A stretch of 42,562 bases of DNA, taken from an uncultured Ectothiorhodospiraceae bacterium (GTDB lineage Bacteria > Pseudomonadota > Gammaproteobacteria > Nevskiales > Oceanococcaceae). How positions within the stretch are numbered: the first letter of the stretch is position 1; every line of letters begins with the position of its first letter. The notes below the pieces were generated by a model, which saw only the letters and a program-made list of their open reading frames with translations, was not told the DNA's origin and made no database searches. Shown here one piece after another: positions 16,840-24,618 of this stretch. The position numbers and the translations under genes are program-made. The DNA is taken from the NCBI GenBank assembly GCA_937141935.1, contig CAKZQS010000028.1, positions 1 through 42,562 of the forward strand, given 5' to 3'.

Positions 16840-17733
16840 TCAGTCGGCCGCCGCCTCCAAGGGCAGGCAGGCATTGAGAAAATCGTCGATGACCGCGGCG
16901 AAGCCGGCCGGGTCCTCCAGCTCCGGAAAATGGCCACAGTGCTCCATCTCCAGCAGCTGCCCACTGGGTACGTGCGCACGTGTACACAATGTCTGGGTGC
17001 ATTGGTGCGAGCGATCCTGCAGGCCCCAGACGGCGATGGCCGGCGGGGTCAAAGGCCGATCGACCACGCCCTGGCCCCAGTCCTGGAGCATGGTTGCCAG
17101 CGGGTAGCCCCCGCCGCGGCGCAGCGCGGTCAGGCAGGCCTCACGCAGGTCGTCGATATCCGCATCCGGGGCGCTGGCATAGCGCAGCCAGAAGCGCGCC
17201 AGCCGGCGCGCGTTCGCCCGCACCAGCGCCTGGCCCAGCAGCGGCCGACGCAGCAGGCCGCGTGGATCCATGCGCTCGGTCCAGGCCTGCATCCCCGCGG
17301 CGTCGGGCGCCTGCATCAGTACGACGCCGGCCAGCGGAACCTGTTCGCGGGCGGCGACGGCGCCGGCCACGAAAGCGCAGATACAGGGGGCGCAGAGCAC
17401 CAGAGGGCCCGTGTCGAGCGCCAGCAGCGCCGCCTCGACCGCCGCGACGGCGCCCGCAAACTCCAGCGCCGCCGCGCTGTCGACGCGGCTGAAGCCAAAG
17501 CCCGGCAGCTCCAGCACCAGCACCCGCCGCGCCGGCGCGAACTGCGCAATCAGCGCGTCATAGGCCTCGACGCTGACCGGCGGGTCGCACAGAAACACCA
17601 GCACGGGCCCCGGCCCACCCGAATCGCGCAGCCGCAGCTGCGCCCCCGGCACCACGACGCGGCGCGTCTGCGGGTGGGCCGGCAAGCGGCGGGGGATCCG
17701 CCATAACCAGCGGTCCAGGTGCGAGGCGAGCAT
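16840..17733 (-). CDS. Alpha/beta hydrolase with Cys in the nucleophile position
   Basis: A 297-aa protein with the alpha/beta-hydrolase order: the LELPGFGFS strand-loop (74-82), a nucleophile elbow, an acid (WGLQDRSHQ, D240) and a C-terminal His (HCGHFPELEDP, H268). The elbow reads LCAPCICAF, so Cys117 stands where GxSxG enzymes have Ser. A Cys nucleophile is known in dienelactone hydrolases (GxCxGG), but the rest of this protein looks like an epoxide-hydrolase/haloalkane-dehalogenase-type member. ATG 17733 has GAGGG 5 nt upstream and is preferred over a GTG at 17778. It lies upstream of bphO with a 123-nt gap; cotranscription is possible. Substrate unknown; it could be inactive. Confidence 0.75.
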   Translation of the reverse strand: MLASHLDRWLWRIPRRLPAHPQTRRVVVPGAQLRLRDSGGPGPVLVFLCDPPVSVEAYDALIAQFAPARRVLVLELPGFGFSRVDSAAALEFAGAVAAVEAALLALDTGPLVLCAPCICAFVAGAVAAREQVPLAGVVLMQAPDAAGMQAWTERMDPRGLLRRPLLGQALVRANARRLARFWLRYASAPDADIDDLREACLTALRRGGGYPLATMLQDWGQGVVDRPLTPPAIAVWGLQDRSHQCTQTLCTRAHVPSGQLLEMEHCGHFPELEDPAGFAAVIDDFLNACLPLEAAAD

Positions 17734-17817
17734 GGCGTACCCTCGACGGTGAAACGCAAGCAAAGCACGAAGCCCCACCCCCGCGCTACCGCACCCCCGA
17801 AACGCGCGGCCGATCAG

Positions 17818-18137
17818 GCGCCCTTGGGCCAGGATGGCCCAACGCGAGCGTTAGCGAGCGAAGCCATTGGCCCACTTGATTGGCCAATGGCGTCGCCGGC
17901 GAGGCAGGAGCCGAGTCCGGCGCTATCAAATCGCCAGGATGGCCCAGCGCGAGCACCGCGAGCGGAGCCATCGGCCCACTTGTTGGCCGATGGCGTTGGC
18001 TGGCGAGGCAGGAGCCAAGTCCAACCCGCCCCGAAGGCGCCCTTGGGCCACGGATGGCCCAACGCGAGCGCAGCGAGCGGAGCCGCCCGGCCACTTGTTG
18101 GCGGGCGGCGTTGGCTGGCGAGGCAGGAGCCGAGTCC
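17818..18137 (-). repeat. Three tandem hairpin repeats downstream of tRNA-Arg
   Basis: Three units of 87-88 nt (17831-17918, 17936-18022, 18051-18137), spaced 17-28 nt apart, fill the stretch between the hydrolase and tRNA-Arg genes. Each contains a hairpin whose arms differ between units but stay complementary: GCCATTGGCC/GGCCAATGGC, GCCATCGGCC/GGCCGATGGC, and GCCGCCCG/CGGGCGGC. The loops keep ACTTG on the plus strand. Units 1 and 3 carry a second hairpin (TTGGGCC/GGCCCAA, 17824-17842 and 18043-18062). All share the direct words GCGAGC and GGCGAGGCAGGAGCC. On the minus strand they begin 12 nt after the tRNA CCA, so they may be cotranscribed. Strand is inferred from the tRNA. No ORF with coding character is present. 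Family not recognised. Confidence 0.85.
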
Positions 18138-18149
18138 AGCCTTGAACGA

Positions 18150-18226
18150 TGGTGGGACTAGTAGGAGTCGAACCTACGACCTGTCGCTTAGGAGGCGACT
18201 GCTCTATCCAGCTGAGCTATAGCCCC
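18150..18226 (-). tRNA. tRNA-Arg (anticodon CCU)
   Basis: A 77-nt cloverleaf. The acceptor stem GGGGCTA pairs with TAGTCCC (one G-U), the D arm is GCTC-GAGC, the anticodon stem GTCGC/GCGAC encloses loop CTCCTAA (anticodon CCT), the T arm is GTAGG-TTCGACT-CCTAC, and CCA is encoded. It reads the AGG codon. The tandem hairpin repeats start 12 nt beyond its 3' end. Confidence 0.97.
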
Positions 18227-18296
18227 AGGCTGGGCGCATGGTAGCGCGGCCGGTCACCCGGCGTGCCCAACAACGGCCCGACGCGGCGCTGCCGAA

Positions 18297-19202
18297 TCAG
18301 TCCGGCGGCGCGTTGCGATAGGCCCGAGGTGATTGCCCATAGCGGCGCACAAAGGCCTGGGTGAAGGCCGAACTGCTGGCGTAGCCGGCATCTTCGGCGA
18401 TGCGTGCCACCGGCGCCGAGGAATGGCGCAGCTGCCAGGCGGCCTGACGCAGCCGGTGGGCAGCCAGATAGCCCATCGGCGTTTGCCCCAGGCACTGCCG
18501 AAAGCGCTGGGCGAAGGCCGAGCGTGACAAGTTGGCCTGGCGTGCCAGTGCGGCGACATTCCAGGGCTGTGCCGGGTCGCGGTGCAGCGCCGCCAGTGCG
18601 CGGCTCAGTGCCGGGTCCAGCAAGGCACGCAACCAGGTCTGGGCATCGTCGGGGATGCCCTGCACATAGCGGCGCAAACACTCGATGAACAGGATGTCGG
18701 CCATGCGGTTGACCACCGTCTGCCGGGCCGGCAGCTCCGCCCGCAGCTCCTGGCGAATGAACTCCAGGCCGATGGCGATCCAGGGCGGCAGGGCCCCGCC
18801 CTCGCCCGGGATGTGCAGCAGCGCGGGCAGCGCGGTCATGAAGGGGCGGGCCAGCTCGGCGTCGAAGCGCGCCTGGCCGCTGAGCAACTGCAGCCGCGGG
18901 CCGGGTCCGGCGGGCCCCAACCGCAGCAGGCGCCCATCGGCCTCGCCAAAGGCCATCGTCTGCGTTGCCGGGCCGCGGCCCAGCGTATGGGCCGGCCCCG
19001 CCGGCAGCACCAGCACATCACCGCGCGACAGCGGCCGCGCCTGCGCCCCGACCCGCAGCAGCGTTTGCCCCTCGATGACGATATGGAACACGGCGCAGGC
19101 GCTGGCCGGTACTTCCAGCGTGCTTTCGGCCGCGAGATCCAGCTCGACCATCGTGGCGCCACGCAGGTGCATATCGTCGAGGAGCATGCTGAGCAGGTCC
19201 AT
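18297..19202 (-). CDS. AraC family transcriptional regulator
   Basis: A 301-aa regulator. Residues about 15-95 form a cupin-like sensor (IVIEGQTLLRVG, LVLPAGPAHTLG). The C-terminal 90 residues hold two helix-turn-helix units (VAALARQANLSRSAFAQRF and PVARIAEDAGYASSSAFTQ) ending in the AraC signature FVRRYGQSPRAYR. The layout matches the AraC-type cupin_6 regulators often found beside oxidation genes. It is divergent from the alkB fusion gene across 95 nt, which makes that gene its most likely target, with hydrocarbon or an oxidation product as a possible effector. The ATG at 19202 lacks a clear ribosome-binding site. Confidence 0.88.
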   Translation of the reverse strand: MDLLSMLLDDMHLRGATMVELDLAAESTLEVPASACAVFHIVIEGQTLLRVGAQARPLSRGDVLVLPAGPAHTLGRGPATQTMAFGEADGRLLRLGPAGPGPRLQLLSGQARFDAELARPFMTALPALLHIPGEGGALPPWIAIGLEFIRQELRAELPARQTVVNRMADILFIECLRRYVQGIPDDAQTWLRALLDPALSRALAALHRDPAQPWNVAALARQANLSRSAFAQRFRQCLGQTPMGYLAAHRLRQAAWQLRHSSAPVARIAEDAGYASSSAFTQAFVRRYGQSPRAYRNAPPD

Positions 19203-24503: not shown

Positions 24504-24618
24504 AAAAAGCGCCGCGCCAGCCACATCCCGGCACCCGAACCCGTCGCTACCGTTGCTTCCTTCCGGACCTGGCGGGGTTTGCGGGGGTTCGTCGCGGGAG
24601 GACCGGCGCGACGCCCCC
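24504..24618 (-). ncRNA. ffs: 4.5S RNA (bacterial small SRP RNA)
   Basis: About 114 nt folding as one long hairpin: the 5' arm GGGGGCGTCGCGCC pairs with the 3' arm GGCGCGGCGC, and the apical domain holds the invariant SRP core CAGGTCCGGAAGGAAGCA. GTGCCGGGATGTGGCTGGC near the 3' end matches the same region of E. coli 4.5S RNA. A run of five U residues (A at 24504-24508) ends the transcript. It binds Ffh for cotranslational membrane targeting. The exact 3' end may vary by a few nt. Confidence 0.95.

Follow-up and report, generated by a model that had tools for sequence, protein, structure and literature searches.

Tandem four-hairpin repeats behind tRNA-Arg genes of an uncultured gammaproteobacterium, a possible branch of a dispersed REP-like family

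The window, by which we mean the whole 42,562-nt stretch of DNA analysed, carries on its minus strand a tRNA-Arg gene with anticodon CCU and an encoded CCA end (18150..18226; ARAGORN; Rfam RF00005, 69.9 bits). Behind its 3' end, on the same strand, lie an 8-nt spacer (18142..18149) and three tandem repeat units: unit 1 (18040..18141), unit 2 (17926..18026), in which the alignment shows the hairpin H3 broken on one side, and unit 3 (17821..17922). A covariance model built from these three units and six sister units (R1) scores them at 116.9, 104.8 and 103.9 bits, and the next-best score in the window is 17.4 bits. Tandem Repeats Finder reports a period of 115 with 2.8 copies at 17828-18137. The sequence-only reading of this locus had described three 87-88-nt units starting 12 nt after the tRNA; the number three is right, the length is about 101 nt, and 8 nt separate the CCA from the first paired base.

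Downstream, on the strand of the tRNA, is an alpha/beta hydrolase gene (ORF 16840..17778, minus strand; Pfam PF12697/PF00561), whose true start is probably inside that ORF. Upstream is a gene for a cupin/AraC-family regulator (ORF 18297..19202, minus strand; Pfam PF12852/PF12833). At gathering level, an Rfam scan of the window matched only the tRNA and a bacterial small SRP RNA gene (24512-24608, minus strand). At E<=10, the 332-nt stretch holding the array matched the tRNA, an antisense Plastid-ycf2 and two weak MIR2600 models, the non-tRNA matches being implausible. A scan of 17600-18400 found neither an intrinsic terminator nor a sigma-70 promoter. A looser script found one stem with a T-rich stretch 363-385 nt past the tRNA, beyond the array.

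Read in the sense of the tRNA, a unit is a row of four hairpins: H1, H2, Hc and H3. H1 has the form GGCTGG-AC-TC-GGC-TCCT-GCC-TC-G-CCAGCC and is followed by a short linker, ACG; H2 is GCCxxxxG-CC-AACAAGT-GG-xxxxGGC; Hc is short and often imperfect; H3 is TTGGGCC-ATCC-TGGCCCAA. Across the family the loops are UCCU or AUCCAU-type in H1, AACAAGU-type in H2 and UCC in H3, and the H1 side is oriented to the gene boundary. The predicted folding energy of the 332-nt stretch is -184.8 kcal/mol, compared with a shuffle mean of -158.55 (sd 4.93; z -5.3), and 0/100 shuffles were as stable.

The stems change jointly from copy to copy while the loops and flanks are conserved. The arms GCCCG/CGGGC, ATCGG/CCGAT and ATTGG/CCAAT, already picked out in the sequence-only reading, are the H2 arms of units 1, 2 and 3, and H1 and H3 covary as well. 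Among nine units from four loci of the source genome, aligned without fitting to the model, both sides changed in 12 of 34 pairs while 94.6% of cells stayed paired; the covariation score was 0.269 versus 0.117 for shuffled alignments (0/500) and 0.097 for the best slid control. For 19 units (10 from the genome's own tRNA-Arg loci, three from its protein loci and six from three other genomes), 25/29 pairs changed on both sides and the score was 0.701 (shuffled 0.167, best slid 0.155). For 57 units (56 distinct) these values were 28/29 and 0.756 (shuffled 0.187, best slid 0.150). Model fitting was used for the two larger alignments and biases them towards the structure. Compensatory change is thus far above controls, bearing out both the tandem covarying hairpins and the selection on structure that had been proposed from the letters. 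We consider selection on structure well supported, although hairpin-templated mutation could also keep the arms complementary.

Whether the selected molecule is RNA was assessed by strand: an RNA acting from the tRNA strand would be expected to show more G.U than A.C cells on it. The ratio is 16 to 3 in the 19 units (11 to 3 minus one loop-closing pair) and 11 to 1 in the tRNA-Arg units of the source genome. It is 55 to 35 in the 57 units (p 0.045) and 6 to 9 in a MITE-like group described below. The alignments behind these counts had been model-fitted in the sense of that strand. A tRNA control gave 53 G.U and 0 A.C, which is not a fair comparison because ARAGORN brackets hold no mismatched cells. 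Since the excess is clear in the tRNA-Arg units, weak in the 57 and absent in the MITE-like group, selection on RNA is only moderately supported, and mainly for the tRNA-Arg branch. An RNA function of the array is possible but unproven.

The source genome (G000; 3.57 Mb in 52 contigs, with 41 tRNAs counted by Rfam) has matches to a second model, R2, in at least 20 places at E<=0.01, with 150 of 10198 candidates scored. Ten units stand behind its four tRNA-Arg genes (CCU 3, UCU 2, CCG 3, ACG 2), with 7 nt between the CCA and H1 at the three loci other than CCU. The fetched flanks of the 37 non-Arg tRNAs, searched with filters off, held no unit and nothing above 15.7 bits; a few end at a contig edge (e.g. 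119 nt 3' of tRNA-Thr(GGU)). Drawn at random, four tRNA genes would prove to be exactly the tRNA-Arg ones with a probability of 1 in 101,270, which is no test of function because spread by homology or recombination among tRNA-Arg genes gives the same pattern. A link to tRNAs, as first suggested, is real at tRNA-Arg; it is not exclusive, since relatives of the units follow protein genes here and elsewhere. In G000 at least 10 weaker units, in the orientation of the gene, lie 5-26 nt past the stop codons of at least seven protein genes. Among the matches listed are genes for isocitrate lyase, an FeS-assembly protein, Rho, a LysE-type translocator, a GNAT enzyme and a histidine kinase, and a PAPS reductase gene with four tandem units at its 3' end.

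Identity between units is 0.861 within and 0.783 between tRNA-Arg loci (permutation p 0.008; 9 of 10 units). The most central unit is UCU1, whose identity is 0.91 with each CCU unit and 0.84 with both CCG1 and ACG1. These likenesses point to duplication within loci and make UCU the likely source. A T-tract terminator lies within 150 nt of 0/4 tRNA-Arg genes versus 16/37 other tRNAs, a difference that is not significant.

Among 85 genomes of the order, R1 matched in 4 and R2 in 8. The four tRNA-Arg genes were fetched from G001, a member of the same genus, where a unit follows UCU and is absent from ACG, CCG and CCU; its unit-free tRNA-Arg(CCU) has a T-tract terminator, and T runs follow its tRNA-Arg(ACG). 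No clean empty site emerged from comparing G000 with G001 at the four loci. Searching nine chosen genomes more sensitively gave 29 matches in seven, of which 15 adjoin stable-RNA genes or share an array that does (G001 1/1, G002 1/1, G004 4/4, G006 1/2, G067 5/7, G068 1/3, G101 2/11). The sequence-only reading had named many tRNA-adjacent, covarying hits as what would support it; the matches outside these 15 include some at the 3' ends of rpsU and ahcY.

Spacing is similar in these genomes, with units 7-9 nt after tRNA-Gly, tRNA-Asp, rpsU and ahcY. G067 has units behind tRNA-Gly and tRNA-Asp and one that follows a tRNA-Arg(UCU) 3' half and neighbours a phage-integrase gene; this split tRNA and the gene names at locus L064 were read by eye. 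G004 has a unit behind its SRP RNA, 18 nt past the Rfam end. Units in reverse orientation place H1 6-9 nt before the 5' end of tRNA-Lys, Gly, Asp, Met and Gln. G101, outside the order, has tandem arrays that are mostly behind protein genes. The nine matches in G019 are MITE-like, with 0 at a tRNA, and form with L037, L038 and L040 of G000 a sub-group bearing outer inverted repeats like CTAAGGAATCTCTGA..TCAGAGCTTCCCTAA, which may resemble IS5-type ends. The outer repeats overlap flanking stop codons in L037, L038, L040 and the G019 copies L046, L050, L054, L057, L059, L061 and L063.

At class level, at least 5 of 370 genomes had a match, a search that says little on absence because only 10 candidates per genome were scored. 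A 21-base H1 pattern gave four matches in named genomes (Streptomyces, Nocardia, Micromonospora, Acetobacter), which we attribute to chance as their 8-kb loci are without a tRNA. Distant blastn against phages and plasmids gave no match, and an 18-base pattern gave 0 in viral contigs. Our literature search, mostly of open-access papers and no proof of absence, returned no description of this hairpin-repeat family.

The array resembles in arrangement the tRNA-linked repeats (TLRs) of E. coli, including rtT/rttR of the tyrT-tyrV operon and rrA/rrB/rrF, which likewise follow a tRNA gene closely on its 3' side as tandem repeats rich in hairpins. TLRs have been known in E. coli since 1978. By the definition in PMC8144298 the repeat ends in 18-19 bp copied from the 3' end of the tRNA, and the paper, of 2021, gives TLRs no known function beyond its own three rRNA-operon cases. 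The likeness to the tyrT repeats in arrangement and not in sequence, noted at the outset, is upheld: the E. coli tyrV/rttR region (NC_000913 1286000-1287600) gives R2 no more than 3.0 bits, the window stretch has no Rfam match to rtT even at E<=10, and the units, which also occur behind protein genes, show no sequence or model similarity to TLRs.

Copies of tRNA 3' ends do occur in G000. We counted copies with <=3 mismatches to the last 22 tRNA nt within 520 nt, some flanks being shorter, and found nine at 7/41 tRNAs: Ala(CGC) (L099), Met (L086), Gly(CCC) (L093), Val(GAC) (L094), Leu(CAA) (L103), Leu(UAA) (L084) and Arg(ACG) (L009). Upstream controls gave 0/41 and cross pairs 3/1618. TLR-type growth is thus common in G000, and at ACG it carried the unit along. 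All nine copies, and two in relatives, lie directly behind a 9-10-bp hairpin, whose loop in G000 usually holds UCC, unlike two E. coli tyrV copies examined, which have no strong hairpin directly before them.

Could the array itself be a TLR in the E. coli sense, a duplication of the tRNA 3' end and trailer, possibly a scar of T-loop recombination, with the hairpins as passengers? The ACG array, in which a perfect 22-nt copy (TCGAATC..CCA) lies between the two units, and the one-mismatch copy before the unit of tRNA-Arg(UCU) in G001 speak for this, as do the frequency of such copies in G000 and the hairpin that precedes each. The window array shares the position directly downstream of a tRNA gene, but its best stretch has 8 mismatches of 22, the UCU and CCG arrays of G000 have no copy either (best 6 and 8 of 22), and the unit is missing at 6/7 tRNAs with copies. 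We regard this explanation as unlikely. Still less probable is that the units are an ordinary REP/REPIN family whose mover is a RAYT transposase, or a MITE of an insertion sequence. REPs are single 20-40-bp palindromes tagged at the foot of the stem with GTAG (or CGTC), and REP, REPIN and BIME elements are linked to RAYTs, whereas our units are four-hairpin strings of about 100 nt. GTAG is absent from both strands of the 332-nt stretch and all three units; CGTC occurs once, in unit 3 on the plus strand, opposite to that of the tRNA. Of the 57 units, 28 contain CGTC anywhere and one GTAG, location relative to stem feet not being scored. Dispersed, intergenic placement near gene 3' ends is a trait the units share with REPs, as PMC3733652 describes them, and the possibly IS5-like outer repeats of the sub-group would fit a MITE. 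The sequence-only reading had held that scattered copies beside a RAYT gene would make the units ordinary REP-like elements. Copies away from tRNAs do exist, at protein genes. The transposase half fails: Y1_Tnp (PF01797)/RAYT has 0 matches in G000, with a control search positive in 5/14 genomes. It has no match in G002, G003, G006 and G067 either, and G000 and G067 are unit-rich nonetheless. Across 12 carrier and neighbour genomes, seven had 17 matches in total, and 10 of these loci, when inspected, showed no credible adjoining unit (one marginal, 19.5 bits).

A role specific to arginine tRNAs, exerted by a structured small RNA or a dedicated trailer cut from the tRNA precursor, would account for units at 4/4 tRNA-Arg and 0/37 other genes, for loops and flanks conserved under joint stem change, and for the G.U excess of 11 to 1. 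Against it, the family also follows rho, aceA, rpsU, ahcY and SRP RNA genes, the same genus has in G001 a unit at 1/4 fetched tRNA-Arg genes, and recombination among similar tRNA-Arg genes would yield the same pattern; we consider it improbable. Read on the opposite strand, the H1 and H3 loops are AGGA and AUGGAU, presumably comparable to the TwoAYGGAY motif and CsrA-binding sponges, but beyond the tRNA the array has no gathering-level Rfam match and only implausible ones at E<=10, and the G.U bias does not favour that strand.

The fold, compensatory change, position and copy distribution of the units are shown directly; beyond these, our best reading is that the array is an untagged REP-like multi-hairpin repeat without an Rfam match that colonised tRNA-Arg trailers and multiplied there. 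We put at about one in two the probability that it represents a branch, linked to tRNA-Arg, of a dispersed REP-like family and acts as a 3' boundary of the tRNA precursor. The family would spread at the DNA level, by moving or being copied, through some means other than a resident RAYT. It would probably have arrived first at tRNA-Arg(UCU), since a unit follows that gene also in G001 and G067 (the latter tRNA half read by eye) and UCU1 is central, and then reached the other three genes, with the array growing in place through tandem duplication. The tRNA precursor would carry the array as its transcribed 3' trailer, the hairpin 7-8 nt behind the CCA serving as a boundary that stops or slows polymerase and exonucleases and leaves a short single-stranded stretch for 3' processing; in its working the array may be likened to E. 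coli TLRs. This hairpin may stand in place of a T-tract terminator, a view favoured by the lack of T-tracts at the four tRNA-Arg genes and the presence of one at the unit-free tRNA-Arg(CCU) of G001. The trailer role is weakened by the reverse-orientation copies before tRNAs, which do not fit it. Most likely the array has a 3'-boundary role and owes its presence to the family's own spread.

A bolder version of the boundary reading, which we hold to be doubtful, has an element that attaches without RAYT to the ends of tRNAs, stable RNAs and ORFs with fixed polarity (H1 gene-ward, 5-10 nt) and has become in this lineage a standing part of the tRNA-Arg set. Having passed from UCU to all four genes, it would serve them all as a shared precursor trailer, controlling how tRNA-Arg 3' ends mature or how much tRNA-Arg is supplied. 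The feature is real and unusual and is not proof of a new RNA, since the units are part of a larger family of hairpin repeats at gene ends that apparently has no name. G000 is a genome outside the enterobacteria whose tRNA trailers carry structured repeats in two forms, the four-hairpin unit at four tRNA-Arg genes and the TLR-type copies at 7/41 tRNAs, each behind a hairpin. With much covariation, fixed polarity and no visible mover, the question of parasite, trailer or RNA becomes testable here.

Some minor structures were seen at tRNA genes. H1 matches the stretch from T arm to CCA of tRNA-Arg(UCU) at 16/22 positions, a likeness that is probably chance and serves as a lead only. Upstream of the intact tRNA-Arg(UCU) gene (L007, 5500-5780) lies a degenerate copy of its promoter and 5' part, interrupted by hairpins. 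At tRNA-Glu, Ser(GGA) and Ser(CGA) (L101, L104, L105) there are weaker tandem partial 3'-end copies, with 4-6/22 mismatches, and GGCAGGAC-type hairpins in opposite orientation behind a T-tract terminator. In G004, tRNA-Lys (L026, 1606-1850) is accompanied by an exact 22-nt copy of its 3' end and then a second copy of the terminator region. In G006 (L051), between tRNA-Gly and tRNA-Thr, a stretch like the start of tRNA-Thr appears once more, on the opposite side of the unit.
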